From: Paracyclopina nana
Lineage: Eukaryota; Arthropoda; Copepoda; Cyclopoida; Cyclopettidae
Assembly (NCBI GenBank): GCA_019096065.1
Contig: JAGUCH010000006.1
Span: 3,368,001-3,432,000 of the forward strand
DNA length: 64,000 nucleotides
Direction: 5' to 3'
Under the pieces are notes generated by a model. The model made no database searches and had not been told where the DNA came from. It worked only from the letters and a program-made list of their open reading frames with translations. Position numbers and translations under genes: made by a program. Positions 7,637 through 57,000 of the stretch are shown here, in pieces (the stretch's first letter is position 1; the number at the start of each line of letters is the position of its first letter).

Positions 7637-8045
7637 GGCATGGTTCACCTGCTCATAATATCAGATATTTTGACAAAATATCGGAGCGAAATTAGGCCTG
7701 GTTCACCTGCGATATTATGATCAAAATATCGAGCGATATTATGCTGATATTTGCAAATATCAGGTACTTCCAAAATAATTTTTTAGATTTTCTCTTCGGA
7801 TTCGGTCTTTTGGTACCAAAAGCCATCCTAGAACAGTATCTAATTTCTCAGTTTCTCAGTATTTCGCTCCGATATTTTGTCAAAATATCCGATATTATAA
7901 GCAGGTGAACCATGCCTTAGATACTGTTGTAGGATGGCTTTTGGTGCCAAAAGACCGAATTCGAAGAAAAAATCTAAAAAATGATGTTGGAAGTACCTGA
8001 TATTTGCAAATATCAGCATAATATCGCTCGATATTTTGATAAAAT
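7637..8045. mobile_element. nested MITE: a 222-bp element inserted into another copy of itself
   Basis: The inner copy runs 7695-7916, is 222 bp long and has TIRs ggcctggttcacctgc and gcaggtgaaccatgcc. It is flanked on both sides by TTA (7692-7694, 7917-7919). The outer copy begins at 7637 with ggcatggttcacctgc and resumes after the insertion with the matching internal sequence, losing its right terminus near 8045. The TTA duplication and GG.. termini fit the PIF/Harbinger pattern. There is no transposase, so it is non-autonomous. Confidence 0.8.
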
Positions 8046-8420
8046 TCAAGACATTCAAAGCTATGCTTCAATAATTTCATAAATGGTAATGTAGAAAGGG
8101 TCAATGACTTTCATAGAATGTGCTAGAAAACGTATTTTCCGGATTTGACCGTTAATATATCAGACGAGCGCGCTCGCTTTTTTTAACCCATTTGAAGCAT
8201 TTTCCGTATCAACGTTTTGGTTAAGAAAAAATAGAAACTAAAAAAGAAGGCCATATTGACATAAAGTGAACAGAATGTCTCGTACTTGATCGAAATTACG
8301 CCGGTTTTAAGTATTTCAAGCGGGCCAAAAGTTATGAATGGTTCCGTTTAAATGATTTGAATTGCGGCCTCAATTTTAATCGAAGTTAAAAATTACGTAA
8401 ATTACACCGTTCTTAAGTGT

Positions 8421-8642
8421 GGCATGGTTCACCTGCTTATAATATCTGATATTTTGTCAAAATATCGGAGCGAAATACTGAGAAACTGAGAATTTAGATA
8501 CTGTAGTAGGATGGCTTTTGGTACCAAAAGACCGAATCCGAAGAAAAAATCTGAAAAATGATTTTGGAAGTACCTCATATTTGCAAATATCAGCATAATA
8601 TCGCTCGATATTTTGATCATAATATTGCAGGTGAACCAGGCC
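8421..8642. mobile_element. 222-bp MITE, full-length copy
   Basis: Same family as 7695-7916 in the opposite orientation and of identical length, with TIRs ggcatggttcacctgc and gcaggtgaaccaggcc. The flanking trinucleotides (tgt and taa) do not match, so the target duplication has decayed or been lost. Confidence 0.8.
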
Positions 8643-21926: not shown

Positions 21927-24900
21927 ATGTTAGGAGGTGCGGTTGGAATGCCGACCTCGGCGGCCGCAGCGGCCTCCGCAGCCGCTGTGGCAGTGGCTGC
22001 TCACAAGCAATTTCATCCGAATTCGCCCCCTTTGGACATCGACTCATGGAAAGAGGCATTTCTTCTCCATGCCAATAATTCGGTCACCACGAATGGGAAT
22101 ATCAACAAAAACGTAAGTTTCTCACGGCAAGAAAACGTATGTACTCTACCGATAGTTTGTAATTTTTGGGCCCAAAATTAGCAGGTAGTTTTTGCAATGT
22201 AAACATAAATTGCCAGCAGACTTTTTGCAACGATCGAAGAATGTTTAGTCAAAGAGTTGCCATTAGAGGCAATGCATCAAGGCTGATATTGTTTATTCAG
22301 TAAGGAAAGTTTGTGTACTCAAGCTTCACAATTTTTTCCCTCTTTTTCCCGAGAAAGAGAAGCAGCTTTTCATTATCGAAAGCTCGCTATCTATCGATGA
22401 AAGTATTCATTTCTTGGCAAGCTGCCCGGAAAAAGTGAGAGGGAGTTCGGACAGAGAGACAATAAGAGACCTTTTGGGCTACTTGTCTCGTAAATCGACT
22501 TACCAAACATTTAACTCACCCAATAGAGCTGTGCATTTCTAACGTCCTTTAAGATTACCCAATATTGCTATCTGAGGGAGAGTTCATCCCCCTCGGTAGT
22601 TAATGATATAAAGCCGTTATTAGCTTGAATTGGAATTGATAAATCATAATTGCACAGGATTGGCAATAATGCAGCCAAAAAGTACATATTGGATTTCGAC
22701 AGAAGGTTCAAAATAATTGAAGGTACAAGCGTAAATAAGCTTGAGGAAATAACCTTATACTTTGGGAAACCATTCAAATGCAAAGTATAGGAGATGGAAA
22801 TTTAAAAAAAAAACATTTAAGGGCTCTACTCAGTTTTTGTAGCTCCCTCAATAGTGTAATATTGATTTCCTGCAGCTAAAGTTAAAGGGCAATAGATTGG
22901 AGGATTCGATCTGGCAAGTAGTTTTACACAATATTTACTGACTGGGATTTATTGAGCTGCAGAGTACAGCAGAGTAGCATGAAAGCTCTTTCATAGAGCC
23001 AGCCAACTGCCAACAAAGTTCATGATGGATCGGTCTCTCAAGTCTCTTTGGGACAATTCATTTGGTGTGAGACAATACTGATTAACCCTAATTATGCTAA
23101 TTCTCTGCTAGGATGCTGATGCTCCCAATAATGAGCCAACAACTGGCGAGGATGGAGTCAGCTCCACAGCCATTAATTTATCTTCGAGACCTTCATCGGT
23201 CTCAGAAACTGCCACAAATCAAGGATCTGGAAATGCTGCCAACAACCTCACGACCAGCATGGAGCCAGACTCGCAAGATGATCAGGTAATTTTTTCTGAA
23301 TTAGCCCTTTCAGGCCCAACAATCTGCTATAAGAAGCCAATCGCGGATTGAATTGGGTTCAATTGTACTCAAAGCACTTTGTTGGGGAAATCGGCGAACC
23401 ATTTTGAGAAATGGTTTTGTCTACGAAGCTCTAGCAGACGAGCTGACCGGCACGTTATCGAGATCTAGTTAAAGCTCGGGGGGGATGCATCATTTATTTG
23501 GCTTTGACAAGGAATGGGCGGTTTATGGTCAACCTAAGTGACAAATAGATGTTTCCATTTTATCTCCCCCCGAAGCTAAAAGATAGGAAGAATTCTTTCC
23601 TGCTGAATTGCATCTTTTTATCTACAATAATTGGCTCGAGTTTAGGCTACGTTTACAGTAATCACGCAAACTTTACCAAAATGGGTCCCTTGGGAATTCC
23701 CTCCTACTAGACTATCAACTGAACCTATTACGTCAAGGATTATGGCCAAAAATCGTAAGAATATGCAAGAAGTCATCATGAAAGTGAACCTCAAATTAAG
23801 TCCTGCGAAGAATGTGAAACCAAATTAAGAGCGCAACTGCTCCAGTTGTAATAGCACTGCTATAAAAGAAAAAAAGTTTGGGGCAGTAAACAAAACCAAA
23901 AAATGCGAGCGTACTAAAGGAACAGTTGTGTTCATTCATTAAAGAACGAGCCCTAATGAGATTTGCAGCCATGTATGTAATTGCAACAATTACAAAAGTT
24001 GGATATGATTTTTACTGCCAACACAAAACTTCTCCCCCAGGACGACGAGAATCTTATAGTAGCCGGATTAATGTATTCAACACGACTCTCGCCAAGTATC
24101 AGAGGAAAATGCAATATAGTAAGGTGGATGCCGCCGCGATTTTGTAAGATTTTTAGCACTACGTGATGTGAAAACTTTGGCAAGTTCAGGTGCAATCTAG
24201 TGTAGCATGGCGGATATTCTACTTTTCACTTTGTCTTCCCCTCTTACTTTTTTCTTTTGATTTGAAAAGAAGAAGTGGAGAAAAGTTTGGAGCTGAAGAT
24301 GTTTAATGAGGATGAATCTCTTTTGGTATTTGTCATCCCAATCTAAAGAGCTCTTGGCAGTTGCTAAATGAGAAAAAAGAAAGGGATTTGCAAACATCAT
24401 CAGCTGAGCCAGATTCCTTCACTATCAGTGGGAGGACAACACCAATTTTTTTCCACCACGATAAAAAGTAAAAGCACCCACAGCTATTTCTTGACCAAAA
24501 GTGTGATTGGTTTTGCTCGTACTCTCCCCTCCAAATCGACGTAGATTTTCTATGGATCTGTATTTTCCCTGTCATATTTAAAGATCAACTAAAATAAAAC
24601 ATTATAAATTACTTTTTTGAGCCCAATTCTAGAGATGGGAAAGAGCATTTTACTACTTTGATCAGGCAAAACGCAACTAAAAATAGAGAGTAATATGAGT
24701 GGCCCAAAAAGCTTAGCCTAACTTTTCTTACTCGCCGAGACGACCACTTTTCTTCCACGTTTCCCTTGATGCTAGTTTTTGTAAGCATCAATCCGATTGA
24801 GACTGGACAACGATTTGGCAAAGTATCACACGTCTTTTCTTACCCCCAAAAAAGAGCAGCTTTGTTTTCCTTTTGAAGATGATGATTATGGACATGGACC

Positions 24901-27900
24901 ATTGGACAAAATAGACGACTGCTGGCCATTTATTGACTCCCCTCATTTTTTTTCCCGAAGCTAACAAAAGGGGAAAGGCGATGTTGGTTTTTTGAAGGAA
25001 ATTCAATATTGCACCCTTTTTGCTCTCAAAACGAGCCTATCAATAAACAATAACGATAAAGTACTCTCAAACTGCAAAATGGACATAGCGAATGGCCAGC
25101 CAAAAAAAATCACATTTGTATGAAATGCTTTCAGCATTGTTTTGATAGAGCCATTCCACAGCAATGTAGGCTCTAAAAGCCTAACCACATCCACTTGATG
25201 GCAGTTTGGCTCTGAGAGCAATAAGAACTTGCACCATGGTTTATATGCTATATGGTATGGCAGGAGAAAAAGCTCAGCAATCCCATAATAATATTTTGGT
25301 CCAGTTATAGGAAGAACGTGGCAAGCAATAAAATGCTGGAAAAGTATATTTTCTCTGGCTGCCCTCAATTCTGGGGCGTGAAATGGCCAGCATAAAATAT
25401 CAATTTGATACTTGGGCGCATTTTTTCCGCGTCCACGATCACTTGCGCACTCAATCTCAATTTCCAACACTTGTATCAGCTTCCCCTTCCTTCTAGACTA
25501 GACACTAAGAAGTGTTAAGAATGGTCAGAAAATAGCGAGCCACAAAGAAGTCTTAGTAAGCCACAAAAGCTTGACAAGTGGCCATAGAAGGGATTTCCAG
25601 AAAAGGAATTCGGATTGAGAGGGACATAAATGTGACTACTTCATGCAATCATGCACTGAACATCGGACTGCAGACCTAACTCAGCAAAGGATAGCAACTA
25701 AAAAGGAAACAGAAAATTAGGCATAAAATAAGATGCTTACCAAATTAGAAGCTGAAAATCTTCCGAAGTAATTCAATCCACACTATCACTTTTGGCTAGT
25801 ATTTCTCAGTTCATTGATTGGAATCATCAATAAGAAATTAATTGATGTTGCAAAGTCACACTTTTGGTACCACGGAAAATCGTGCAGCTATATGTAGTTA
25901 AAAAGAGGACGATGGCATGGCAATTTTTCTCCTATGAAGTTATGATATTGAGGCTTCAAAAAGGATTTCTGGCTTTCTCCCCAGCTATTTTTCGGGGATG
26001 GTAATAAATGTGAATTTATCAGGCCAAGCATAACAAATGGTAATAGCATTCCAGCTCCTCCTGGCATTATTGATGGCAGTTCAATTTTTGTTACCCACTT
26101 TGACTTGTTATGAGAAGAGTGGGAACTTTCCAACAAAAACATCTGTGAGCTCGCAGAGACACGCTTTTTTACATGATGATGGCAAGAACCCAGAGGAGAA
26201 GCAATATATAGCCTATATGTGAATCCTGAGAAGGAAAGTTCCCCAGCTAATGACATGGCACGAATCGAGAGCTCTCGAATTCCATTTAACGAAAAAATTG
26301 GGAAAGTGGCATTTATCAAAATGTATTGAGCCCGTGCAAATACTGTATAGCAGCATAAGTTGAGTGGCCTTAAGGCTGAGAAGTTTGCTGGCAGCTCAAA
26401 TCCTCATACTACATCGGAAAGGGGATTGAAAGACATTTGAACGACACTTTTGGCATGGTGTCATCAGTGCTTTGTGTATGGGACTTTCTCAGATTGAACA
26501 TGATAGATGCTGCTGAAGTTGTAACTTTTGTCATGCACACTTTTTTCCACCACCCTTCCTATCTTGAATACCTAGCTTTAGTTCGGTTTTAGCGAAATGT
26601 CCCAATTTTAAATTGGAACTTTTTGGCTCCGGAGCACTGCATAGGGGCTCCCCCTTCCTGATTGATCATCATCACTTCCTATACCAGAAGAAAGTTTTTC
26701 CTTCAAGATCCTTTACAAGCACAACATAAACGGGCAATTTTCATATGGAGCTTAAAACACACACACACACACCCCTAAAATCAATCAAATTTGACACAAC
26801 AGTGTTGCTACTGCTGCTGCTACAGTTAACGGGTTTTTTCGTTTCATCCATCTGCATAGAAATGCATTTGTCACACGCCTAGGAATAAATGCAATCAGCG
26901 CACAATAATGAGCCTGAATGTGCAATTTGTCATCACTAATAGACTTTTCCATTTACCATCCAGTTGAAGTCATTAGTTGCCTATGACATTTATGAACATT
27001 TAAAAAAAGGATATTCTTGCGAGTTGAAAAAAAAAGAAATTTCTCGAATTTGAGAGTTGGAGAGTTTGGGATGTAATCCAAGATATTGATTGAAAGCTGA
27101 CCAAAAGTGTAGAAAAAAGGGGGTGGTCTTGTTGACAAATTACATTAGGTACGTGAATACTGGTGGTGCAGAAAACCGTTGACAAATCTGTGGACCGTGA
27201 TTTTTTCATGTTTTATTCATAGCCATTGCTACATGCATAGAAGTATACGTATGTAGATATGGGGTATGAATCACAAAAGTATGAGGCTTTTTCCATCGTG
27301 TGGTTTCGGGGCGAAAGTTTTGAAAAAGCCCAAGGGAGTCATTGAATCATGACAAAAACTTTCAAGAAAAGAGTCGACAAAGTTAGTACTGGCAGCAGCC
27401 TTTTGCCACATGCATAATGCATTAAACCCCCGAAAAATTACAGAGGAAGCCAAATATTAGGGGATTTAAAACTGGTGAAATAAATCAAAACTGAAAAAAA
27501 GCTGATGCTCCCTTGGGGAAACGAGTCCTTTATTTTCAGTTCCCCTCTGGTGTTTACGGTCTTTGGGGCAGGCAATAATAACATCTTCATTTTTTAACAA
27601 GGGTGGGGATCATTATATTATGCGAAAAATATGGTAATGGCATCAAATATTACCTTCCGGAAGGGTTTTGTTATCCCTAGCTGTTCCGGTCCTTATTGCT
27701 CCCACTGACTGCTACTCCTAGATATGAAATTAGAAAGCAGAAGCTCTTCGCTACTACAAACAGAGGTTTTTTATCTCTTGCTCATTCTTGAAAGGGAACA
27801 GATCATCTGCATACAAAAAGCAAGCTTGTTTGCAGTTGCTACTTTCAGCAATTGCCTGCTGCTTGAAATTTGAGAAAGCATTGATCCCTTTTTACAACTT

Positions 27901-30900
27901 GTGTGCTGACATCAATTTCTCGATTTGCCAGGAAAAACCACATTGAAAACAAAATCTTAAAGGGCAAGCTGTCATTTGAAAAAATAATCAAACCGAGGCC
28001 TTCTCGAGCCAGATTGAAATAATAATGTAACAAAGGTTGAAAAAGTAGCTTCTGAGAAGGAATCTTTAAGGTTGTTCCAGACAGCTCCCAGGTGTCCTAG
28101 TTGTAGCAAAAAAGGCTGACGTCGAGCAACCAGATGCTATTTACATTTCGACATCATACAAGTAGCTTTAGGGAGTGTTTTATCTGATTTCAAGTTGATC
28201 CCTTTTTCTGACTGCCAGGATTGGCAATTTCGGCGAAAAAAAGTACCATCTGCTTGTTTTCAAGCCCTCAAATAATCAGTATCAGTTGTAAGTTGGTAAA
28301 TGCTCGCGCGTGCCTAACCTGATGTCAAGAGTCAAAAGTTTGACGTTTGCATGTTATTAGGGATCTCCCTTGATCCGGAATTGTCTATTAATCATACATG
28401 GCATCCGCAGCAAAGCTACACACAGTAGAGCTCCATCAAAAGGAGCGAATTTTGACAGATGCTCAGTCAACCGAAATACAATGAGAAAAAAGAAGGGGCT
28501 CATTATGCTTACACGAGTAAAAAAGAGGGACAGGCCAAAATTGAGATAAAGGGGGTTAAAATCCGGCTCTATTGAGAAGATGTATTACCCGGCTCCCATT
28601 TGGCGGAATATTTTAAATTTTGTGCGCGGCTCCCAAAGTGAAAGCAAAGAGTAGCAAAAGTTTGTGATCCCACCGAGGACGACACGGGATCTCGCGTGCT
28701 TAAAAGTAGAAATAGCATCCCAGGGCGGAGGTTAATCTGCTTTCCGATATTTATGCTACAAATTATACATCAATCATGATTTTCCAAGCACGCTTGACAT
28801 GCAATTTGTCCTCTCCAATAGCAGCATGCAAAAAACGAGGATAACAACTCACCTGCAACTCCAAGGCTTGGTAGCCAGGTTCCACGTGAAGTAGGCGGAG
28901 GAAAGTTGAGTCCCTTGCAAGCGCTTTTTTCGCCCCCTGGATTGCAGCAAATGCAGCAGTTTTTGCAGCACATGGCCAACAACAATAACAACAACAACAA
29001 TGGTGGAGGTCATCCTGGTTTCAATCCGGCTCAATTGCAACATTTCATGCAGCAGCAGCAAAGTTTTCTCTCGCATCATCAGGTAATTTAAATTTGTTCG
29101 GTACCTGCAAGCAAAAAAAAATCTGTAGCTAAAAGCTTTTTATTTTACGTAACTTGAGGAGCAAATGTTAGCGAGAAGTCAAGTACATTTCTAAAGACTT
29201 AGCTGGAAGCTTGAAATCAGAAGAAAAATAGTATGGCTTCACTTTTAAGGCATCTCGACGAGCTGACTCAATGTTAATATGATTTAAAATTTTACTTGGC
29301 TGTGTTTAGCAGCAATTGGCAGACGCCGGTCGCAAGCAGTTGGAGCAACTGATGCAGCAACTTCAAGAACAATTGCAAATCAATCTCTTGCAACAAACTC
29401 ATCTTATGCAAACGAACTCCGCCATGGAGAGTAATAAGAATGGAAACAAAACCAGTCAAGCTATGCAACAATTGCAGATTCAGCAACAGCAACTCGTCTC
29501 GCAGCTTCAGCTAGTGCAACAAAGACTTCTCATGGTAAGTTGATAGTGCGATATATTCCAACCATCACTCACTGGAGGGGCTTCAAAAAAGAATTTTAAA
29601 AATGCCAATTTTCCAAGTCAAACCTTAATTTGGTGCCAAGACATATTTGAGATTATGCAATGCTCATTTTGATTTTTTATGGGAATGAACCCCATTGTGC
29701 ATTTATGCCAATACCAAAGCACAATTCTCTGCAAATCAAATTGCTCCAATTTGCACCCAAACTAGTTGCCAAGTTTCGGAAACAACCCTGGAAGGAAACT
29801 GTCAGATTCGGACTATGACAATACCAAGGCATCCTCGTGGAAAGAAAATAATGGGAATGTTTGCACGTCACCCAGCCCAAAGCATATTGGTGGAAATCAT
29901 AAACTAGGTCAGTAAAATATAAATGTAACAATTTCACAATGACACTGAAGTAAAAAAAAAATTGAACGTAATAGGAGCCAAGTTTGGAGAGAAAGAGGAA
30001 TCCCGAATTAATTTGGATCGGGAATCTTCTCCGTCATCTCCAATAAATCAACATCCCCTTTTTCAACACGGAGTCTGCCAATGGCCGGGATGTGATTCGC
30101 ATTTCTCAGATTTGGTATCGTTTCTTAAACATGTCGGCCACGAGCACATTTTGGACGACAAAACCACCGCTCAAGCTAGGTAGCTTCATTCGTTGAAAAT
30201 AATACCAGTTAATTACTTATTATGGCAACTTGCGCATAGGGTGCAAATGCAAATTGTGGCCCAATTGGAGCATTCGTTGAGCAAGGAAAGAGAAAGGCTT
30301 CAGGCAATGATGGCTCACCTGCACTTGACCAAAGAGGCCCAGGCCAACAAGTCTGAGCACAACCGAAAACCGATGATGATGATAGAGAGAAACGAGAGAT
30401 CGCAGTCTGAGGGTCCACAGCAACAAGCCCACCCTGTGTCACCACCGGCGGTATCAGCAGTTGACATGCGTCCAAAGGTTGGCCTTTTTCACAAGTTCTC
30501 ACTAAAAGAAAAAGACAAAATTTAAGTTAACCTTACCATGACCATTTTGTTAATTTTCGTAAATTTGGTTTTTCAGAGCCCTCCCCTAAAAATGAGGCCT
30601 CCACCGATACCCCCAATGTCAGGGCCGCCACCCCCGGGTAGCCTGGCAGCCATGCAGCAAGCCGTTTCGGCCGCTGCAGCCGCAGGATTTGGACACCTAC
30701 CTAATTTGGGAGGTCATGGAAATATTGGCTTGCCACCAACTCCTCTTTCGGCGTTGACAGCCGCAGCGCGTGGGTCAGCGGCTGCGGCCGCAGCAGCTGC
30801 CGCAGCAGCAGGCCTCACCCATCCTCCAACCTCGATGGCCAACCACATTCGGCGAAGGATGGCCGAAAAAACGCCACCGATCCCCATGAGCAACGGGTTG

Positions 30901-33900
30901 CCGTACATGTTCGACCGGGCTGGACTTGACATTGCGCAAGGTATCTTCTGAAAAAATTGTTTCTCTTCATTTCACAGTTATTCCATGAATTTCGACGAGA
31001 ATTTTACCAACGGTACAACTTTAAACTTACCACGATCTAAGCTAGCGAATTTCAGCTCATTTTGAATTTTCAATTTCGGACGGTTTTTTTATATTTGTGT
31101 TACGTTGTTTCATGGATCGATTGAGTAAGTCGATTTTAACATTTGAAACGAAAAGTCATCATTTGTCGAATAAGATAAACTGTAAAGGTTCTTCAATTGT
31201 TGAAAAAATATTTCTGCTACAAAAATACTTTTATCTTTCGTTCAACTTGACGCAATACTATTGAAATGATTAAGATTGATTAACTTCGATAGCTTGGAAA
31301 ATACCGCTCGGATTTCAGCTAAGCCGTTTCGCGACTTTTTAGTCGAGCGGATCGAAATTAAAGACGATCCTTTATAGTACTTACGAAAAAGATCAGGAAT
31401 ACGCTAGATTCGCGCTTAGATTGTACAGGCATAAATTATTGATTTTTTTTTCAAGAAATACTCCATTTATACTAATGGAAAGTTGCAAAGGTCACAAAGT
31501 TAGACTCAGTTTTAAGCTCCAAAAAAGGACCCTCGCTTTTGTGTCTGTTATTTTTACGCGCTTTCAGAAATCATAACAAAGAAAACTAAACCAATTTGAC
31601 GCTATAACTGGTATTTGTTGCAGAAATTCATCGCAATCGTGAGTTTTATCGCACCAACGATGTTCGTCCTCCATTCACGTACGCATCATTGATACGGCAG
31701 GTAAGCTCCAAAAATGCTTAACTAACAAAAAGCCCCTCAAAACCTAAGAACTTAGCCATTTCGCCCTCCATTGTGCTCTGCTTGGCTAGTAAACAAACTT
31801 ACAATGTCAATTCCCCCTTGGGACGCAATTTTTTACTTATTCTTTGAAGAAAAACTGAAAGCCAATTGGACTAAAAGACACCATATTTTGTTGTCACCCC
31901 CCAGGCAGTGATTGAATCCCCAGAGCGTCAGCTGACTTTGCACGAGATATATAACTGGTTCACCACCACTTTTGCATACTTCAGAAGGAATGCGGCAAGT
32001 TGGAAGGTATATAAAATACTCGTTTTTACCGCTACTACTATTGCTCTTCTCATGACTTCTTCCTTGAAATTGGACAACAAAAACTTAGTAATAATCATAA
32101 AGAATAGATGGTGTTTCTTGATAAAAAAAGCCACCCTGAAATTCCTCCAAATTCATTAGTACTTTTTGTTCTGTATTAGTCTGGTAAATGGAAAGTCTCC
32201 CAAGTGAAGTTGCTACGTGTCATCATCAGCTGTTTGTTTACATGATTTCTCCAGGCACAGCCAGCTGCCAGCATTCGAACCAAAGTATGCAAAAGTGGAT
32301 GATTTTTTCTCGTTTTTAAGCGCATGTGTGAGTGTTTTTAATCAACCAATTCTTAATACTATTCAGGCAATTCTCCTTGAGTCGCCTAACCGACAGTTGA
32401 CTTTGGGCGACATCTATAAGTGGTTCACTACAAACTTTAAGTACTTCCGTACCACTAGCAACCTCACTTGGAAGGTAAACATGTTAATTTTGGCGAACAG
32501 GGCCCGTTAACATCCGTTAAAATGACTCCCCTTCGCCGCCAGCCGTTTCCCCTTTCAGCCCTTGAACAAATGCTAGCCATTAACAACAACGGGTGTTAAC
32601 GGGGTTGAAAAGTGTTTGCTCTGAAAACAAAATATTGGTTTCAACTGCTACTAAAATTGCCACACTACTATGATATAAATAATCACATCCGTTTAGAAGT
32701 TACATTTGCTTTTTTTCTTGGTACTATATTCGCACTCTCGTGATTTTTGCTTTGCCTCTTCTGTTTCAAATCTGTCAAATTGGATTCTTCCGAGGAGAAG
32801 AAGAAGCTTTAGGATGATTTAAATACCCAAGTAGAGGTTGCAGAAATGCTGATAGTAGTTCACCCGAAAATCCGAAAGCCACTCACACATGCACTTGAAA
32901 ATTGAATGGGGGATATGAATTAGCAACTTTTTCCTTTCGAGTGTGTGACCCCAAAAACAAAAAGATTGGTTTGCTTTCAGGCTATAGTTGAGTCTCCAAC
33001 GGGGCAGCTAAAATTAGGAGAAATTTACACTTGGTTTTCCAATAGTTTCAAACATTTCCGAACAACTTGCAACCTCACTTGGAAGGTAAACAAAAGCCAC
33101 CACACCCTTTTATGTTGCCTCTTCTCTTCCTGTCACTACATCAATTATTTTGATTGTATCTAGAAGTATGTTAACTGCCCAGGAAAGTTTCAGGATTGCC
33201 ATTCAAAAAAGTTTCAACTCTTTCAAAGAAAGCCTTTCAAGTGAGGTTTTAAGGAAAATATGAAAAAAGATCAGCTCCTCCATAGGGAAAAATCTCCTTT
33301 TTTCTGCTTTTGACAGGCGATTGCTGAATCTCCAAATCACCAGTTGACTTTGGCTGAAATTTACGCTTGGTTTTCAAGCAATTTCCAGCATTTTCGCATA
33401 ACTTGCAACCTCACTTGGAAGGTAACTATTATTATTAACAGTTTCGGTTGTCCAATCTCTTCTGACGTGCGTGCTAAAAAAAGAAACCCTTTGGTCATCA
33501 ATATGCATCATCTAACCAACTCCTATTTCAGGATTTATCATTGTTGTGCTGTAGCATTTTAGATAAACTACTATGTGTTCCTCCTTTCTTTCCCTTCTCG
33601 GTTCAATTTTTCACAATACGAAAATCATATTCTGAGAGCAAGCGCTTTTTTGAAAGTAGCTTTTATTCTTTTTGTCTAGCGAACAAATGTTAGTCATTCT
33701 TGTCATAATTAGAGCCTCTTTACTTTTGTAAGAATGCCGTCCGCCACAACTTGTCTCTGCACAAGTGCTTCATGCGTGTGGAGAATGTTAAAGGGGCCGT
33801 TTGGACCGTTGATGAGGTTGAATACCACAGAAGGAGGCCACAAAGAGGGGCGTCCTCGGGGTAAGACCTTCGTGCTGCACACCCATCAGATGGCCTTCAC

Positions 33901-35788
33901 TCACAAACTGTCCATTCTCTCAGCCAAGGCTGGTTAAACCCTCTCCGCGTTTTAACCAGTCTTCAGCATATACTAATATACCACCTTTTCTATAGTATAT
34001 GGAATATCTCACGCGTGTACCATATTTACATATACTAAGGGTTTCTTATACTGCTGTCGTTATAACCATATATATAATATGCTATTATTATTATTATTAC
34101 GTAACACTACCACGTTTTTATCAACATTGTTAATTGATTTCTCGTCTTCTTTCTCTTTTCCCTACACACAATTGAATCCCTTATTGCCCCCAAAAATCGT
34201 TTCTTCTTCTTCTCACTCTGTCTATTGCACTTTTCACCATTTCTCTCTCACACACAACCCTCAAAACCCCCGCAAAACTCGACACAACACACTCTGTAGA
34301 ACGCGATTCGCACCAACTTGTCGCTGCACAAGTGCTTCGTGAGGTATGAGGACGATTTCGGATCCTTTTGGATGGTGGACGATGCGGAATTTATGAAGAG
34401 ACGCCATCTTTCGAGGGGCAGGCCGCGAAAATACGAGCCCAATAGCGCCCAGCAACAGGCTGCAGCTCAGCAAAAGTCAGCTGACGCTGTGACGTCATCG
34501 ACGGGTGGCGTGCCAACCAGTTTGGCTGCTGCAGCTGCTGCTCAGTTCAAAATGGCGGCGGGCGGGTCACAGTAAGATCAACTAGTGCCAGACAAAAGCG
34601 CCAAATGCCCCATTTTTCGGCATTTTGCGCGCAATTAGGCTTTTTTCACGCTAGAAAATATCGTAGTAGGGGCTGCTCATTTTGTAAGGTTTTTGCTGCC
34701 AAAAGTCAATTTTTCACCTGATGCAAAAACCTGATGCTACCTAGCGTGTCGCAATTAGCTGCTAGATTACTCTATAAACTACTACTTGTCCAATCTGTCA
34801 TTTTTCCAACATTAGCCATATTAGACGAGGATTTTTCAAGCTCTCGTAATCAAACAGAGAGATGATTTTTTCATACTAGAATTCAGCCGCTTTCTTTTCC
34901 ACTGCCGATTTTTACTTACAATATACTAGCCTTCTCCATACAAAATCTGTCCTATCCGCACAATACATTATAACTGCATGATCAATGGCATAGTGAACCC
35001 ATTCAAGTTGGGGTTTTAATTCATGAATTTTTTTTAGGGCCAAAAGTCCGTCGTTTGTGCCGAATCCATCAATGTACAGCGACGCCTTGAATGCCAGCTT
35101 GCAATCCGCACTGGGCTTTGCTGAGAATAATTTGCCCTTTTTGGCACACAGCGGCAGCGCCTCGATGGTTAACCCGTTCCATCAGCACCAGAGGGAACGC
35201 GAGGAAAAGCAAGGCTTGGAGAGGTACGGTCAAAATTGAAAAGCCTTACGTAGAAGCAAGCAAGCAAAAATGCTGTCTTTTTCAAGCTTTCAAAATTCCT
35301 ACTTAATTAGGTTGATGTCTGACTTTAGGCCTTCCTCAGTGGAATTCGCGGCTTCCAAGCTTTTGGGGGGCAGCAACGCGTCCTCTTACCTTTCACCCTC
35401 CTCAATGAGTGACACGGAAAACAATAATAACAGCAGTAGCGAAAAGGCCGAAGACAGGCAGCCCGCGTCGCCCTCCGCAGCTGGGCTCCGCTTAGGCCGA
35501 AAACGGGCCGCTTCGGCCGATCTTGATGGAGATCTAGTCCATGATGACGAAGACCTCGAGGACGAGGAGGATTCATTGCATAACCAGCTGAGGCGGAGGC
35601 CGCCCTCTGCTGAGGCCCTGGCAGAGGCCAGAAACAACTACAATGAGTACTTGGTGGAGCAGCACGAAAAACAGGTTAAATCCGACCAGGAGGCTCTGTG
35701 CCTCAAGGACATTTCGATGCTGAGAAATAGCGAGGATCATATGAGCAGCCGAGGAGGCTCGAGTAGCATCAAACGCGAAAAGTATTGA
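21927..35788 (+). CDS. FoxP: FoxP-A: forkhead box P transcription factor with two sets of alternative forkhead exons
   Basis: Exons: 21927-22112, 23112-23285, 28879-29082, 29310-29534, 29766-29907, 29975-30179, 30240-30477, 30577-30940, 31624-31700, one of A1-A4, one of B1/B2, 35038-35223, 35329-35788. All junction phases agree. With A1+B1 the product is about 896 aa, with A1+B2 about 944. Order: polyalanine N-terminus, Ser/Thr/Asn-rich part, Gln-rich region, C2H2 zinc finger (from about residue 345, CQWPGC..H-x4-H), leucine zipper ([20 protein letters not shown]), polyalanine/proline linker, forkhead (from about residue 580, [20 protein letters not shown]), acidic Ser-rich tail. The zinc finger, zipper and forkhead together define FoxP: a nuclear, dimerising, mostly repressive DNA-binding factor. 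The ATG falls at the first base after an acceptor, so 5' UTR exons lie upstream. The 30477 donor (gttggc) is weak and the 28879 acceptor is the least certain. Confidence 0.93.
22113..23111 (+). other. FoxP-A intron 1
   Basis: 999 bp between donor aac|gtaagt and acceptor ctgctag|gat. AT-rich, with nothing else recognised. Confidence 0.8.
23286..28878 (+). other. FoxP-A large intron (~5.6 kb)
   Basis: It runs from donor cag|gtaatt to acceptor tagccag|gtt. Minus-strand open frames at 25003-25470 and 25888-26319 lack recognisable domains and are judged chance. A short (AC)n run sits near 26757-26772. No nested gene is supported. Confidence 0.7.
31905..32006 (+). CDS. FoxP: FoxP-A alternative forkhead exon A1 (canonical type)
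   Basis: 102 nt, 34 codons, phase 0-0, with acceptor ccccccag and donor gtatat. It encodes the forkhead segment from [12 protein letters not shown] through [12 protein letters not shown], that is helices 1-2 and the hinge. Length and key residues match the single corresponding exons of FoxP-B and FoxP-C, including the hinge alanine in FAYF that is characteristic of FoxP proteins and allows domain swapping. This is the ancestral-type exon. Confidence 0.92.
32367..32474 (+). CDS. FoxP: FoxP-A alternative forkhead exon A2
   Basis: 108 nt, 36 codons, phase 0-0, with acceptor attcag and donor gtaaac. It is homologous to A1 ([20 protein letters not shown], then [13 protein letters not shown]) but has one extra residue near the start and one in the turn before the recognition helix, where RRNAASWK becomes RTTSNLTWK. 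The FoxP hinge alanine is replaced by lysine (FKYF). The intact frame and splice sites indicate a real exon, used in place of A1. Confidence 0.88.
32981..33085 (+). CDS. FoxP: FoxP-A alternative forkhead exon A3
   Basis: 105 nt, 35 codons, phase 0-0, with acceptor ctttcag and donor gtaaac. It encodes [19 protein letters not shown] and then [13 protein letters not shown]. Like A2 it has the +1 turn insertion and the hinge lysine, but it lacks the extra N-terminal residue of A2. The last 15 coding nt plus the donor are identical to A2 and A4. Confidence 0.88.
33317..33421 (+). CDS. FoxP: FoxP-A alternative forkhead exon A4
   Basis: 105 nt, 35 codons, phase 0-0, with acceptor ttgacag and donor gtaact. 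It encodes [19 protein letters not shown] and then [13 protein letters not shown]. It is closest to A3. The hinge position is glutamine (FQHF). The conserved NLTWK end and donor context are shared with A2 and A3. Confidence 0.88.
33733..33860 (+). CDS. FoxP: FoxP-A alternative forkhead exon B1 (recognition helix, canonical)
   Basis: 128 nt, entering phase 0 and leaving phase 2, with acceptor gtaag and donor ggg|gtaaga. It encodes the recognition helix [13 protein letters not shown], then [18 protein letters not shown] and [11 protein letters not shown]. This is the form shared by most FoxP proteins; R-H in NAVRHN corresponds to FOXP2 R553/H554. Reading through the donor meets a TAA immediately, so the gtaaga donor must be used to reach the shared exon at 35038. 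FoxP-B has an exon of the same 128-nt length. Confidence 0.9.
34300..34571 (+). CDS. FoxP: FoxP-A alternative forkhead exon B2 (recognition helix, variant)
   Basis: 272 nt, entering phase 0 and leaving phase 2, with acceptor tctgtag and donor aca|gtaaga. It encodes [13 protein letters not shown], then [15 protein letters not shown], the basic [12 protein letters not shown] and a Gln/Ala-rich extension. The base-contacting histidine of B1 is threonine here and the wing is different. It splices to 35038 in the same phase as B1, so the two are interchangeable. It resembles the variant exon of Drosophila FoxP isoforms and the mammalian FOXP1 stem-cell isoform, as far as I can recall those sequences. 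Confidence 0.9.
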
Positions 35789-38296
35789 TATCTCCATGTA
35801 TCAAGTCGGTTTTTATGATAGTCAACAATTTTTGAAACATTTAGTCAACCCACCACCAACTAATTATAATTCTACTGTACATATTGTAGTCGGCAGTATT
35901 ATCACCAGGCTTCACAAAGAGCAGTTATATATTGGAATTTGGGGGCTTCACCCGATCTCTCATCTTGGTCTGCAATTCTCTCTCACTCTCTCTATTGAAT
36001 GTGGTGTGTGGCTACTTTATCTTTCAGCCCCAGCAGCAACACTTTCCTTGGCCCCTATATAGTCTATGGTACTATGATTAGATAGTAATGTGTGTAAGGT
36101 ACATCATTTCCCTTCTATAGATCCTTTGCCAATCAGCTTGTTATTGTTATTATACACCCACCCATGCTGCAGCCCCCCTTTATCGATAATAAGGTTGTAT
36201 TATTCTTATTGAGGAAAAAATTCAACCCCCTTTCAAGCATCTTGCTGCTGCTGCTGCTGCTACGGACTTCCTTGGCTTTTGGCTAGACAAACATTAATTT
36301 GCAAGTCCATTAACCCGAGCCCTTTTCGAATTAAAAAGATGGATTACTGCTGAAAGAATTCCTCCGCAAAGTCTTCAATGCTATCAGTGACTTTCCAATT
36401 TCCTCCTAGCCAAGCAGAAAAAAATATCACATCATTGCACTAGCACACTGTCATCGTAGTGGCAAAATGTCATCATAATTATTACCATTAAAATTATTAG
36501 TTGCTTGTGAAAAAATGCTTCTGATGAATGTCTCAAGAATAAATTAGTAATAAATGTTGCCATTGCAAGTTTTCACCCCCAGTAACGAAAAAAACAGAAC
36601 TAGCTACATACGTACGTACACACTCTTTGCATTTTCACTGAATTTGTCAAGAATAAATAACACAATCACACACCACTGCTGCTATATCTATGTAAAGGAT
36701 TCGGATACAGAAATCAGCAGGCAAAAAAAAGTTTTCCCCTGCATCTCAATTGATTTTGTCTTTGAATTCAGTTGACACGGTGGCCATTGAAGCATGGGAA
36801 ATAGCAGCGAATAGGTTTTCCATAAATCTCACTTGCCCAAGCAAATGGAGGGACATTTTATCAGGCGTTGCAAAGTTTTGAAATATGACCCGAGTGGTCT
36901 TTTACAAAATTACAAAATGGCCATAATATCATTTTCACAACTATTTTATCATAAAAGCCTCAGCACTGATTTTTCATAAACCTACAAACGTCAATTCTGG
37001 AAATTCACTATAGTTGACATTACACAACTAATTGTTTCATGATGTCTCCTTCTATGCATCATCGTTTAGCCTGTTACCTAAAATCAAATCCACCTTTGAA
37101 TTAACTTAACATTATAGCATCAGTTAGGCTTTCTTTCTCCAACCTGAATTTCGAAGAAGAAAAAATGGCCTCTCATAACATCGCAGTCACGATGGCCATA
37201 ACGGTTTGTCAACTTTGTCTACATGATGAGAATTCTTGGCATAAAAGTGCAATTAACCACTCGAAGAATGGCTGCAAAAAAGCGGAGGACATTGTCATAA
37301 AAATAATTAGTGACCGCACTCCAGCCACCCATTTCTATGCAAATGAGATAGGACGAAAAAAAGTTCATCAGACGATGCTGGTGATAGCTTTCTTTCTGAG
37401 TTGAACCAACAAAAAATTGCTCATTGAAGCATAATTAAAGCTCTCCTTCGGCAAGAGAACTGCAAGAGGAGAAGAATAAATGAGGGACGATGAAACAGCG
37501 GAAAGTGCCCCTATTTTTAAGCTCGAGACAGATTATAGCAAATGCACTTGGAAATTTCCACATACTATTTACTTAGTAAGAGATGAAAGCAGCACGGTTT
37601 GAAAGGTCGATCTGGAGTACGCAGCCATTCAATTCTCCCTCTATGACTTATATCGATGTCTCATGATAATAATGAAGAGTGTGACTCAATTAGTTCTAGG
37701 CAGTATGCTTATTCATCTGAAAAAATCTGGAATTGCAAGCTTTCCAACGCAAATTACGTCCCTTAGATAATAATAGTTTTACATGGGTAAAAAATTATGA
37801 TACCAGTTTAAGTCTGCAATGCCATATGGTAAATCGGGATTGCTGATTTCGATCCATTTTAATGAGTGTGGAGCCTTATCTCCCATGGGGGTGGCTTTCT
37901 ATATGCCACGAAAAAAGCCCCTATACCTTGTACGAGATACATCTCCATCCAGTGAATCCCTTCTTTTGCTATTTTTCTTGAGCTTTCCACTTCACCTCAA
38001 ACTCATTATTCGACTTTTGCTGTGTCATTCTTCGGTTCCCTCTCATTTGCTTCCTCCTTTTGCTATAAAGGAATCTAGTGTATCCCAAAAACAACCGAGG
38101 GAAAAGTTTCCATTTTCTGTTTTTCGTGATTTATAGCCATCATGATCTGCGCTTTCTCAATCATTTTTCGATCTTGGACCTCAGAAAAAAAGATGAGGAG
38201 AAAAAAGGACTGCTTTTTTGCTGCCTGTCTCCTGGGCAAACATTAATAAACACGATAAATAAAGTGTGCTAAGACTGCTTAGTTTTAAGCTTGGCT
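35789..38296. other. FoxP-A 3' UTR and FoxP-A/FoxP-B tail-to-tail intergenic region
   Basis: Two AATAAA signals on the plus strand (36538-36543, 36549-36554) could end FoxP-A. A (GCT)n run is at about 36244-36262. No further gene is supported. Short frames here (37165-37404, 37819-38136) lack domains. Confidence 0.55.
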
Positions 38297-38684: not shown

Positions 38685-41600
38685 TCATTCAGATTTGATC
38701 ATAATTTCTGAATGGCAGCTTGGATGATTACTATATCGACTTTGGGACGAAGCAGGAGCAGCAGTAGGGCTTTCACTTCTGGATGATTTGTTGCTCAAAT
38801 CCTCAGCTTTCTCCTCATTCTTGTCATCTTCGTCCTCTAAATGCATTGACGTTTCGGGTGAAGGTCGATACTGAGAAGAGATGGACCTTGGCGAAGGGGA
38901 CGAGGCTTCCTTGATCAACTGGTCTTGCTTGGACGATATGGTGTTGTTGTTCAACCCATGATGGGACAAATCATCACTAAACAATTAAAATTTTATACAT
39001 GCACAATGGGGCATAATTGCATAAATTACCTATTTCGTCTGTGCTGAAGCTGCTGCTGGAACGGATTGCTCAGATTATGCAAATAAGCCTGGTGTTCAAA
39101 GGACAATCCAGCAATGTGGGTTGGGAGTGGCATGGCTTCTGGTTGCAAAAGAGCATCGCCAAAAAACGAGTTGCCTGAGCTTGGAACAGGGGACGAGTAA
39201 CTTGTAGGACTTTTCCCACCACCAGACCTGAACGAGTTTTCAATTAAGCTTTTTTCTTAATTATATTCTCCCTTTTACTCACCCTCCAGATGCTCCCCTT
39301 TGAGGCCTCCTCCTGTGATATTCCAATTCATCCACGGTCCAAACTGCGCCTTTGACATTTTCCACCCTCATAAAACATTTATGGAGTGACAAATTGTGTC
39401 TCACTGCATTCTGCACAAAATAAATTCATGAAGCCGACTTTTTTCTCAAGGTGAACAAAATGTACCTTCCACGTAGCTGCATTTCTCCTGAAGAATGCAA
39501 ACGTATTTTGGAACCAAGTGTAAATCTCATTGAGCGTCAGTTGTCTTTCCGGACTTTCAATGATTGCCTGTAGTAAAAAAATCACAATTATTTTCAATCA
39601 TGGTTTTGCTTTAATTTTAGCAGCACTTGCCTGCCTTATCAATGCAGCGTAAGTGAACGGTGGACGGACGTCATGAGTTCGGTAAAAATCCCGGTTCTTT
39701 GATATTTCATTCTCGGCGTCACCAGATGCGGACCTTTCCAATCCAGAAAGTCGCCCGTTATTTGAGGAAGGTGCCTGAGATGGCCCCACCGATTCTGGCC
39801 TGGACGAGCAAGATAGCTCCTCATCCCTATTTCTCATCACACTCAGCAAACCTTTTTTTTAAAAAAATGAATTAGTCTCAATATTATGCCTTTTTCAAGT
39901 GGAACTACTTTTTGAGTCCTCGGACCGATTTCGATCCATCATCGGGTGAGTGAGGCCAGCGAAAGCAGCAGCTGCCGCAGCCGCCTTGGCGCCAAACAAG
40001 TTCTGAATTCCTCCGCCTAAGCTCTGCGCCAAAAAGTTGGACTCGATTTGCGCCATCTTGTGGACAGCTGCTGCACCAGTCAATTCCGGAGACTTGGGGG
40101 AAATAAGCTCTGCTTGATTATTATGGACTTTTTTGGTGCTGGGATCCAAATGAGCTCTCATAGCTTCCAATCTTTCCGTCTCTCTTTTGAGCTGTTGCTG
40201 AAGGTTGGACACGATTTCAGCCTGAAAATTATTTCACCAGTTTCAGTTAAAGCTTGATTAGCAGCCAAGCTTGCAAATTACTTGAACCCTCGTTTGAGCG
40301 GTTGATCTTTCATCCAGGATATGCTCATGGTTGAGATGAGCTAGAAAAGTGGCCATTGAGTCACAACTGGTTTCACAACCTGCCCAAGAGCAAACTCCTC
40401 TGGTAAAGAGAGGATGACTTTTGGGCTGCTGCAATTGATGCCTATTTGAGGTCTCATAATTTGACTCATGGCCATTATTGGCAGGTGGGCTGTCTTCTCT
40501 CATTCTCTTGAAGCCGTTTTGAGCTCCAGTCTGTGAAGTGGAGAAAATGACGTTTTTGGCACTTTTTGGCTATTAAATATCTTTGCTATACCGCAGATCG
40601 CTGCAGCTGAGACATCAAGTGCCGCTGATGCTGAATTTGATCCAAATTTCCCGGGGACTTGTCTGGGTTGTGCAACAAGCTCATCTGCAGCAAATGCTCC
40701 AATTGTTTGTTCCTATTGGCCTCTGAGTACTCCTATGCAGAAACAGAAGATGTTGATTCCTTCAAAGAAAACAATTTTCAAGGTCTTACAGATTGAAATG
40801 CCAGCTGTTGTTGATGATGCATCAAGACTTGGAACTGCTGGGGAGTCAAACCCAGCTGAGACTGCAGAACCTGCAATGGTGACATTTGTGGAACCATACT
40901 TGGTGGAGATCTTGACTTTGGCTCACTTGCCATCAGGCTCATGGGATCTTTGACAAACAATTGTTGTTGCTGCAACAGAATGAAGAACATTTAGAAGACC
41001 TTCTTCTTCTGTGCCCTACAAGCTGATGAATGGCAGGCATTGGTAAATCTGCTAATGAATAAGGTATGAGCCAATTGATCCAGTTTTGGCAAAAAGAAAT
41101 GTTTTTATTGTCTCCCATTTCCCGGAATGTGTGACAAAATATCACCACAACATACAGGGAGGCCGAGAAAAAGATACAAAACAGCCTTGCTTTTTAAGTT
41201 GCTCACAGCCGCGTAAAGTTGGCCAATAACAAATGCCAGTGATTATGAATTGTCCCAGTATTTTTCGCCTCTCTCTGTATATCCACATTTATCGACAACA
41301 GATATTCATAGAGCAAGAAGACATGATATTTTCTCCCTGCTAAAGGTTGCATTGAAAAAAACAGAATATCAAGAGTTTTCGTTTGACTTAATTAATCATG
41401 GCTTATTAGCAAGAAAAAGTCCTTGAAAATCCTGACTAAAGTTTGGCCATAGTCTAAAAGTCAGATATGGTACAATAATAGCTGATTGGACTCATCTACG
41501 TCGGTTTTTTGGCTTACTTTGCATCGATGCAACAACATCTCTACTTCTTTCTTAGCATGCAGTAATTTTGTAGCCATTTCTGAGAGCAAAAACAACATTA

Positions 41601-54028: not shown

Positions 54029-57000
54029 CTACTTTGAAATAATGTTGAAATTACTGCTATTTGTTGTCATGAGTCGGCTGAAATCAATAAAATGGGGTAC
54101 TGTCGTAGGCGCTAAATTTGGGCTCGAGCCGCTGGCCGATCCACCATTGATGAGACTTTCGAATTTTCCGGTCGTGGGGTCGTATTTGCGTGGCCGACCT
54201 CTTGATAAATGTCTCCGTTTGAGAAATTCACAGTCATCTACGGTCCAAAAACTGCCATAATCATCTTCATATCGTACAAAACACTTGTGCAATGACAAAT
54301 TGGTCCGAATCGCATTCTGAAAATAAATCAGCTTAAACGAGATTTTGTTAAAATTGAGCTCGATTTATGGTAACCTTCCACGTGGCAGCATTTCTCCTAA
54401 AATAAGCAAAGTTATTTTGGAACCAAGTGTATATTTCGTTCAGTGTCAGCTGACGGTCAGTGGATTCGATGACTGCCTGAAAGGAAAACTGGTTCTAATT
54501 GCACTTTTGCCTATTTTTGACAATTGTAACCCTAGGTTTACCTGACGTATTAAGGAAGCATACGTAAATGGAGGTCGGACATCGTTAAGCCTGTAAAAAT
54601 CTCGATTTCGCAAGATATCTACAAAAAAAGCTTTTGTTAGTCTGCAAAAAATGCTCTCTAGTTTGGCATAAAATTAGCTGCCAAATTTGTTACTATGGCC
54701 ATTTGCATGGATATTTTTAAAAGCCTTTTCAATTAAACGCCTTCAAAACATCTCCATGTGATAGCTTGATCAATTAGCTCAATTTTGTTTTCGAAAGCTT
54801 TATGAAACAGGTAAGTTCACACAGCGCTTATACCGGAAACATTGTGTTGTATTATTGGACTTGAAAATTACAGAGTTTTCAACAACTAACGTTAACGCTA
54901 TGCATATACCTACATATCTAGCGGCTAGAAAAATAACTGAGTGAGATGAAGAGCTTGAAGCAAAATTAGATTAGGTATGAGCAAAATAGTAAAAAGCAAA
55001 CATCAAAAATGAGTATGCTAATGAAAAAACGCTTCGCTCAATTGGGCTTTGCTCACGGTTTAGTTACATTTTTCCGAATAAGGTAAAAAAGATGGCATTA
55101 GGAGTAACCTCCGATTCTATTTCGGCGTCCTTTCAACTAGTTCGTCGCATAATCGTTATCATTTGGCTTTTTGACTTTTCAAAACAAAATATTTGGCGTT
55201 CTGGTCTAAAAACAAGATATTTTCTGTCTTTTCCAGAAAGCTCCTCTGTGCTTTAAGCTTGCTTTTCTTGGGCAAATTGTCCTGCAAAGCACACAATTAT
55301 TACTCAATGTGCCCATAAAATGGCAACAAAACTGGATTAAATCTTACTTTTAAAAAATTAGAAGACTGAAATATTAGTGAATTAGTTGAAATATACCATA
55401 TCTGTTGACTTTAAAAATTGATCGGAGGTTCAATTTTTTTAGATCGGGGCTAGCAGCAGAGCAGGTGCAAACAGAAACAGATCGAAATTCAATTTTCAGC
55501 CCGCTAGCCTACGCTGCCATTAGCTGTGCTATCATTAGCTCCTCCTAGCGGCAAAAATTATTACTACCAGAGCCTCCGTAAGCAAAGCCCAATTAATTAT
55601 TGAAATAATTTACCATTCTCAGTTTCAAACGCTTTGGTGGAAGACTCAAAACCGATTGGGGGCTTGCTCATCTCTGCCATTTTCCTTGCTTCAAAAGTAG
55701 CAAATCTTGATGGATTCTAGGAAATCAAATAACTGTAAAATTATCAAACTTGTATTGTCTTGATATTACTTTAGGCTCTGGAGAATCGGGCTTAGAGCCA
55801 TCTGACAATTTTTCCAATCCTTCAAACATCACAACCGAGGGACCCTAGAATTGGAGCCATTAGAATTTTCTCACATTAGGTATAAGTTGTTATACCTTGT
55901 TCAAATGCGCCATCATTGCTTGAAACCTCTCTTTTTCCTTGCTCAAAGATTGCTCCAACTGAGCCACAATTTGAAGCTGAACTTTTGCCTGGAAGAATAA
56001 TAGTTCCCTACCGCCTCAGCAAAAGTTAGACCCCAAGAAAAATCCCTGAGAGGTCGGGAAAAATTTGAGAACCGAGCAACTATTTTTTATCCGAGCGCAG
56101 CGAGGAAATGAAAAATTGTGCGAGGTTCTCAAATTTTTCCCGGCCGATCAGGGATTTTTCGAGGGGTCTAACTTTTGCTGAGGGTGGTAGGGATTCATTT
56201 TTCTCTAACAGTAACCGAAAATCCCAGGTTGGTTGAAATTCCAAGACAAGCTCGACTTAATATTTCGATCTATTTTAAAGTGACCTAAGTCAACTCGCGC
56301 TCGCTTGGCTGGACTGCCCACTGACTCATCAAAATTCAGCACTCTACTGGCTTCTAGCTGAATACTGAAACTCAATTAGAAGTTAGAATCACCGCCGAAT
56401 GACGCCATTGAACATTTTTAACCAGTGATGTGATGTAAAATTGGAAAACCAAGACTCCCGCATCTCAGAGTGACTCCCGCACCTTGGAGGAGCGACTCCC
56501 ACACCCGACAGCGTCTCCCGCACCCGGCAGCGTCTCCCGCACCCGGCAGCGTCTCCCGCACCCGGCAGCGTCTCCCGCCCCCCGGCAGTGTCCCTCTCCA
56601 ACACCCGGCAACGTCTTTAACTGCAAATTGAGGCTGCCCAAGACCAAGACAGCAATTTGAGGCTCCCGCTCCCGGCAGCGTCTCCCGGACCCGGCAGCGT
56701 CTCCCGGACCCGGCAGCGTCTTCCGCCCCTGGCAGCGTCTCCCGCACCCGGCAGCGTCTCCCGCACCCGGCAGCGTCTTCCGCCCCTGGCAGCGTCTCCC
56801 GCACCCGGCAGCGTCTCCCGCACCTTGCAGCGTCTCCCGCACTCGGCAGCGTCTCCCGCTCCCGGCAGCGTCTCCCGGACCCGGCAGCGTCTTCCGCCCC
56901 TGGCAGCGTCTCCCGCACCCGGCAGTGTCTTCCGCTCCCGGCAGCGTCTCCCGGACCCGGCAGCGTCTCCCGGACCCGGCAGCGTCTCCCGCACCCGGCA

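Follow-up and report, generated by a model that had tools for sequence, protein, structure and literature searches.

A FoxP cluster and the tandem forkhead exons of FoxP-A

Scanning of 114 kb of the Paracyclopina nana genome (92 Mb in 10 contigs), with a threshold of one third of the self-score, revealed four FoxP genes, D, A, B and C, within about 90 kb. FoxP-A (21927-35789, plus strand), FoxP-B (39297-40401, minus strand) and FoxP-C (54182-58283, minus strand) are located in the window, that is, in the whole stretch of 64 kb that was analysed, and FoxP-D lies on the plus strand 27 kb upstream of it (about 1750-3020 of locus L010). FoxP-A contains four A exons, which encode helices 1 and 2 of the forkhead, and two exons for helix 3 and the wing, B1 and B2. 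FoxP-D and FoxP-B have one A exon and B1 only, and FoxP-C has one A exon and B2 only. The exon scan thus agrees with an earlier interpretation of the letters alone (the sequence-only reading), which had assigned a single A exon each to FoxP-B and FoxP-C, and it adds FoxP-D as a further paralog of the same kind. As D, B and C have one B form each, the B choice and the A array have been retained by FoxP-A alone, and it looks as if an ancestral splice choice was partitioned among the gene copies of the cluster. Invertebrates are described as having a sole FoxP gene in sections of PMC6372147.

Two features of the surrounding DNA were also observed. In FoxP-C, tandem repeats occupy positions 56491-57500 (about 40 copies of a 19-nt unit, followed by a unit of 140 nt), between the FOXP coiled-coil match (57909-58280) and a leucine-zipper stretch (55902-55988); they contain long open frames on both strands, which are apparently spurious. 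Open frames of 427 and 192 aa on the minus strand (9204-10487 and 60760-61338, respectively) had no Pfam match at E 0.001.

The array of FoxP-A is preceded by a shared exon (31624-31700, plus strand, as are all exons described here), which was delimited by its translation and AG/GT borders, holds the start of the forkhead and is in frame with the upstream exons. It is followed by the canonical helix 1-2 exon A1 (31905-32006), defined by its translation, its AG/GT borders and its position in a tree next to the canonical Tigriopus exon, and by the alternative exons A2 (32367-32474), A3 (32981-33085) and A4 (33317-33421), each defined by a Pfam match, splice borders, dN/dS and the scoring of exon combinations. 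B1 (33733-33860, NAVRHN type) and B2 (34300-34571, NAIRTN type), located downstream, were assigned from splice borders, the gene model and the paralog scan. A1 to A4 are 102, 108, 105 and 105 nt long (34, 36, 35 and 35 codons). All four have phase 0, an AG on the 5' side, a GT on the 3' side, a length that is a multiple of three and no in-frame stop codon. The sequence-only reading had described four tandem helix 1-2 exons at these positions, and its positions, phase and borders were all reproduced. In a search of the entire 92 Mb with the Pfam forkhead profile, each exon was detected on its own (E values of 2.7e-6 for A1, 4.8e-6 for A2, 2.0e-4 for A3 and 1.9e-5 for A4). A2, A3 and A4 share a one-residue insertion near the 3' end, and A2 has a second insertion near its start. 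The introns between the A exons are 360, 506 and 231 nt long. As homologous neighbours of similar length and identical phase, A1 to A4 form a tandem exon cluster.

The gene model of FoxP-A consists of nine exons 5' of the array, one A exon, B1 or B2, and two further exons, and yields proteins of 896-946 residues that terminate in a stop codon. It is one of several in-frame models, because some splice sites, both upstream and downstream, could be placed in more than one way. The protein combines the FOXP coiled-coil domain (PF16159, 111.7 bits) with the forkhead, and the forkhead profile PF00250 was found in all eight combinations of an A with a B exon at 81-99 bits, compared to a cut-off of 27.

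Coding constraint, relatives and probable one-at-a-time use of the A exons

Pairwise amino-acid identities among A2, A3 and A4 are 66-71%, and pairwise dN values are 0.17-0.21. The dS value is 1.3 for A3/A4, and it was not computable for the other two pairs, which have too many differences. Third codon positions account for 23 of 35, 21 of 34 and 14 of 26 pairwise differences. Judged by these values, A2 to A4 are old and under coding constraint.

Protein searches (best 120 of 1813 matches, 2 of 2, and best 120 of 2937) yielded 170 different proteins. FoxP-A was aligned with these proteins, and among the 12 alignments listed the best were those with Tigriopus (610 and 609 bits), L. salmonis (468 bits) and four others (457-472 bits); a bee protein reached 337 bits in one piece, or 462 bits summed over two overlapping pieces. 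Proteins labelled "isoform X" are automated models, usually built on RNA-seq. Two such models of Tigriopus californicus, X2 (P0013) and X7 (P0014), show 12 differences over 868 common residues, all of them within residues 622-652, that is, inside the A exon, and in the form of a one-for-one swap. X7 has the canonical A exon, and X2 has an alternative A exon together with the full B2. The canonical A exon of this species also occurs with B1 (P0123, entry TCALIF_01205). In Lepeophtheirus salmonis, isoform X3 (P0134) has an odd A exon, AIIESPHNRLSLCEIYNWFQNTFAHFNQVSTTWK, joined to B1; a canonical isoform of this species was not found among the matches listed. X2 and X3 are the only ones of 168 A-exon sequences (from 167 of the 170 listed proteins) in which the motif [YF]FR[RH]N is absent after the hinge. 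A protein search with the A4 region only (8 candidates) returned two proteins, neither of which had an alternative-type A exon. In the predicted structure of T. californicus P0013, the alternative exon is part of a confident forkhead (10-residue blocks with pLDDT 88-95, at an overall mean pLDDT of 50 and a pTM of 0.31), which is weak evidence, because the forkhead fold is well known to the method.

One could assume that A1 alone is spliced and that A2 to A4 are decaying or unused duplicates. Indeed, A1 is the canonical exon, and A2 to A4 have other residues in place of the widely conserved FRRNA and at the hinge. However, a high synonymous divergence in combination with a dN of about 0.2, the lack of stop codons and the intact splice sites of A2 to A4 are at variance with decay, as is the occurrence of isoforms with an alternative or odd A exon in two copepod species. 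We therefore consider it very unlikely that A2 to A4 have no use.

A tree of 22 hand-picked A-exon sequences places A2 to A4 in one clade (support 99/98), A1 with the canonical Tigriopus exon, paralog D and one further protein (96/93), and T. californicus X2 with L. salmonis X3 (91/79). The bootstrap was rough and had not settled, and the tree is weak because it rests on only 34 columns. Constraint tests tolerated A2 to A4 together with X2 and X3 as one group (p-AU 0.53) as well as A1 to A4 as one group (p-AU 0.34). A single origin of all copepod alternative A exons is thus compatible with the tree test, weak as it is.

The sequence-only reading had proposed that the A exons are alternatives, of which one is used at a time. 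This proposal gains support from the coding constraint on A2 to A4 and the complete forkheads of all eight A x B combinations, and it is matched by the two T. californicus isoform models, which differ in the A exon only. It is therefore probable that A1 to A4 of FoxP-A form a mutually exclusive cassette, with the choice between B1 and B2 downstream; for P. nana itself, we infer one-at-a-time use from the gene structure. Each transcript would contain one A exon and one B exon, so that up to eight forkheads could be produced from one gene.

Two simple ways of enforcing exclusion were ruled out for the A exons. A1 and A2, the only A pair tried, retain the frame when they are joined, and therefore a frameshift could not enforce exclusion, unlike for B1 and B2, whose joint inclusion shifts the frame. 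Steric exclusion by short introns was ruled out by the intron lengths of 231-506 nt. As A1 plus A2 stays in frame and the introns are spliceable, some other factor must separate the A exons.

The retained frame would also allow that several A exons are included together, resulting in enlarged or tandem half-forkheads. A double copy would be expected to break the forkhead fold, although Pfam still scores the A1 plus A2 form, as two stretches. The region from the preceding exon to helix 3 was compared in 170 stretches from 169 of the 170 proteins among the matches listed; it has 34 residues in 168 of them, 43 in one and 32 in one, and a double A exon occurs in none. This uniformity argues against co-inclusion, to which we assign a very small chance. 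A further alternative to one-at-a-time use in full forkheads is that A2 to A4 belong to truncated or dominant-negative products that do not bind DNA as forkheads. FoxP isoforms with a truncated forkhead are known in flies, according to parts of PMC6372147. Nevertheless, the donors of A2 to A4 have the same phase as that of A1 and join B1 or B2 in frame, and T. californicus P0013 combines its alternative A exon with a full B2, which leaves this explanation improbable.

The hinge residue and other alternative FoxP exons

Among forkhead factors, FoxP proteins stand out by forming domain-swapped dimers, which is largely put down to one hinge residue (PMC8508939). This residue is Ala in human FoxP and Pro in the majority of other Fox proteins. 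The Ala is regarded as the main cause of domain swapping, and further changes besides the Ala are said to be needed (PMC8508939); the role of the hinge residue in domain swapping is also treated in PMC6443806. In an alignment, the hinge Ala of A1 (FAYF) falls opposite Pro39 of 2KIU, the structure of the A39P mutant, and opposite the Ala of FOXP2 and FOXP4. A1 is the only A exon of the array with Ala at this position, which is occupied by Lys in A2 (FKYF) and A3 (FKHF) and by Gln in A4 (FQHF). The extra residue of A2 to A4 is located a few positions after the hinge. Of 171 motif matches in the listed proteins, 156 have Cys and 15 have Ala at the hinge, and none has Lys or Gln. The hinge Ala itself is thus not universal, as Cys is present in most of the listed relatives.

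Because the A exons differ at the residue tied to domain swapping, an exchange of A exons might tune the dimerisation of the forkhead, a proposal for which we see the chances as evenly balanced. If it is true, a gene that varies its hinge by exon choice would represent a natural experiment on the role of dimerisation. The choice between B1 and B2 would act on another property. Exon 18/18b of FOXP1 is the helix-3 exon. Its choice is reported to act on DNA preference (PMC11701043), and the choice of helix 3 through B1 or B2 may do likewise.

Alternative exons in the FoxP forkhead are known from the Drosophila isoforms A and B, from vertebrate FOXP1 exon 18/18b and from FOXP1-ES (PMC6372147, PMC4070984 and PMC11701043); the sequence-only reading, too, had named alternative use of the following exon as known in FoxP. 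The Drosophila and vertebrate helix-3 alternatives resemble the B1/B2 pair of FoxP-A in being a choice within the forkhead. However, they swap the later part of the forkhead, whereas FoxP-A multiplies the preceding helix 1-2 exon fourfold and changes the hinge. T. californicus X2 and L. salmonis X3 have the same exon in an alternative version, in which the Tyr that follows the hinge is replaced by His, a feature shared with A3 and A4. In contrast to FoxP-A, with three alternative versions, a hinge Lys or Gln and an extra residue, the two species have one alternative version each among the matches listed, which keeps the hinge Ala and lacks the extra residue. It had further been remarked that no multiplied version of the helix 1-2 exon is on record. 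This holds for the literature listings surveyed, several of which were capped. In the databases, however, an alternative version of the exon is already present in T. californicus P0013 and, to judge by its odd sequence, in L. salmonis P0134. Taken together, alternative FoxP forkhead exons as such are known, and, as far as seen, the exon concerned, the number of copies, the hinge changes and the anti-exon layout described below are new. The alternative forkhead exons of FoxP thus seem to have increased in number in one arthropod lineage, in which four FoxP genes are also clustered.

Intronic elements complementary to the A exons

An inverted-repeat search revealed intronic stretches, all listed here on the plus strand, with complementarity to the 3' portions of the A exons. 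In intron 1, between A1 and A2, a 38 nt element (32261-32298) is 76% complementary to A1 positions 31966-32003, including 16 nt of exact complementarity, with a predicted duplex energy of -46.3 kcal/mol; the pairing ends three bases before the end of A1. Three further elements match the 3' ends of A2, A3 and A4 in antisense orientation. They are located in intron 1 (32197-32215; predicted -21.8 to -23.6 kcal/mol), in intron 2 (32827-32842; a match that needs one bulged base, with -17.1 to -22.4 kcal/mol predicted for the stretch 32830-32850) and in intron 3 (33233-33253; predicted -26.0 to -28.5 kcal/mol). For introns 1 and 3 the complementarity extends to the last exon bases, and for intron 3 it takes in the first base of the A3 and A4 donor sites.

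The repetition of these matches was quantified with a 20-mer from the end of A3/A4. This query, like the five-codon tail discussed below, was picked after the complementarity had been seen, and the p-values are therefore after the fact. In introns 0-5 the 20-mer has three antisense matches with a score of at least 8, namely in introns 1, 2 and 3 (scores 13, 13 and 14), and none in introns 0, 4 and 5. A score of 13 was reached by 0, 1, 5, 4, 1 and 1 of 4000 dinucleotide shuffles of introns 0-5, respectively. As a local control, 20-mers were taken at every tenth position of the 114 kb, excluding low complexity. Only 11 of 9685 had at least three antisense matches in 2.1 kb, and one of the 11 is the intron 3 element itself. 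Nine of the other ten are located at 7671-8601, an A+T-rich palindromic repeat stretch, and one at 11891.

A scan of 17 FoxP-A exons against introns 0-5 indicated that the matches are largely confined to the A exons. Antisense matches with a score of at least 13 were found for 11 of 83 20-mers of A1, 6 of 89 of A2, 4 of 86 of A3 and 4 of 86 of A4, as well as for 3 of 253 of B2, and for none in the other 12 exons. They are located in the 3' half of A1 and at the 3' ends of A2 to A4. Sense matches in the same scan were limited to two upstream exons and to intron 4. When ungapped matches were compared with 300 shuffles, the scores of A1 and A2 in intron 1 were equalled by none, that of A3 by 5 and that of A4 by 3, and the scores of A2 to A4 in intron 3 were equalled by 0-1; the intron 2 element was inconspicuous without gaps, as 128-188 of the 300 shuffles did equally well. 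Local genomic controls were less extreme: 29 of 1850 segments of 102 nt scored at least 16 in the next 360 nt, 35 of 1840 segments at least 14 within 360 nt upstream, and 40 of 1840 segments at least 12.5 within 231 nt. Single antisense matches of such scores are thus not rare locally, and the case for the elements rests on the threefold repetition and on the confinement to the A exons, with B2 also matching.

In a predicted fold of the 2.7 kb from 31600 to 34320, three of the A exons are paired with intronic elements: A1 with the element of its own, A2 with that of intron 2 and A4 with that of intron 3. The anti-(A2/A3/A4) element of intron 1 pairs with intron sequence and with no A exon. No known RNA family was found at the gathering score in 31600-34600. 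A dispersed repeat as the source of the elements is not supported, as the exact motif was detected in A2 to A4 only and no second site was found for the anti-A1 stretch.

The paired exon end itself shows no synonymous change between the copies. At degenerate codons for residues common to A2, A3 and A4, synonymous differences were found in 12 of 14 cases in the exon body and in 0 of 4 cases in the five-codon tail (Fisher p 0.005; the extra A2 codon was removed for register, and the five-codon cut was made after the identity had been seen). The exact 14-mer GCAACCTCACTTGG of the exon end occurs at three sites in 92 Mb, one in each of the exons A2 to A4. When up to one mismatch was allowed, 35 sites were obtained on the two strands, compared to 11 for a reversed control, and one of the 35 is the anti-(A2/A3/A4) element of intron 1. 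The identity of the tail is based on four codons, and it could also be accounted for by gene conversion or by a splicing enhancer. Similarity between the flanking introns of the copies was not significant either upstream (200 nt, p 0.12-0.93) or downstream (120 nt, p 0.52-1.0), and the mutual similarity of the three anti-(A2/A3/A4) elements was not above chance in upstream 200-nt windows (p 0.22-0.38).

These observations suggest a way in which the A exons could be kept apart. The choice may be helped by RNA pairing between introns and exons, a model that in our estimate could equally well prove right or wrong. The elements of introns 1, 2 and 3 would each cover the common 3' end of A2 to A4, and the anti-A1 element would cover A1. 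If each element masks the 3' part of one exon at a time, the exons would compete for being covered or free, and pairing up to the exon end and into the donor could make the 5' splice site inaccessible. Such a set of elements would arise by tandem duplication of a unit that comprises an exon and an upstream anti-element; that competing structures are created by duplication is a general idea found in PMC6071210, with partners that are intronic there.

The complementarities might, on the other hand, be by-products (old exon ends copied in inverted orientation, for instance), with the alternative exons being chosen by ordinary trans-acting splicing factors. Read by eye, the reverse complement of the anti-A1 element is A1-like, as an inverted partial copy would be, and inverted matches are fairly common locally. 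However, neutral copies should decay like the flanking introns, which keep no similarity between the copies in the windows tested, whereas three separate introns still match the same 14-20 nt, a stretch without synonymous change. We regard by-products as a possible but somewhat doubtful explanation. If the pairing model holds, the intron-exon complementarities would offer a compact, testable case of RNA-structure control in a four-exon cassette.

The layout resembles the docking site-selector splicing of insect Dscam1 and other genes (PMC6071210), in which several elements are complementary to one kind of partner and the exons are tandem duplicates. In FoxP-A, three intronic elements are complementary to three nearly identical exon ends, so that several elements face the same partner at the level of complementarity. 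The difference is that the docking site of the Dscam1 type is intronic, whereas the predicted partner in FoxP-A is the 3' end of the variable exon next to the 5' splice site. A single intronic docking site with one-to-many pairing was not found among the inverted repeats at the thresholds used, the best candidates being two one-to-one stems. The first would bracket A2 to A4 (left arm 32066-32099, right arm 33427-33459, which begins 6 nt beyond the end of A4), and the second would flank A2 (32313-32339 and 32875-32901); all arms are given on the plus strand. Among 15 intron pairs tried, the A2 stem was equalled by 0 of 500 and the A2-A4 stem by 1 of 500 shuffles. However, local genomic controls, which included placements in the locus itself, reached the scores in 23 of 754 (A2) and 9 of 749 (A2-A4) cases, and therefore the intron-intron stems are suggestive only. 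Whole-intron duplexfold z-scores were mixed, from -3.99 (introns 0/1) to +1.56 with 40 shuffles each, and were set aside.

In the two short introns adjoining the A exon of FoxP-B, FoxP-C and FoxP-D, no antisense match to the gene's own A exon with a score of at least 12 was found. Within FoxP-A, a 20-nt antisense match was also observed between B2 (34390-34409) and intron 1 (32106-32125), with 1 of 300 shuffles as good; it may be due to chance, or perhaps it links the choice of the A exon with that of the B exon.
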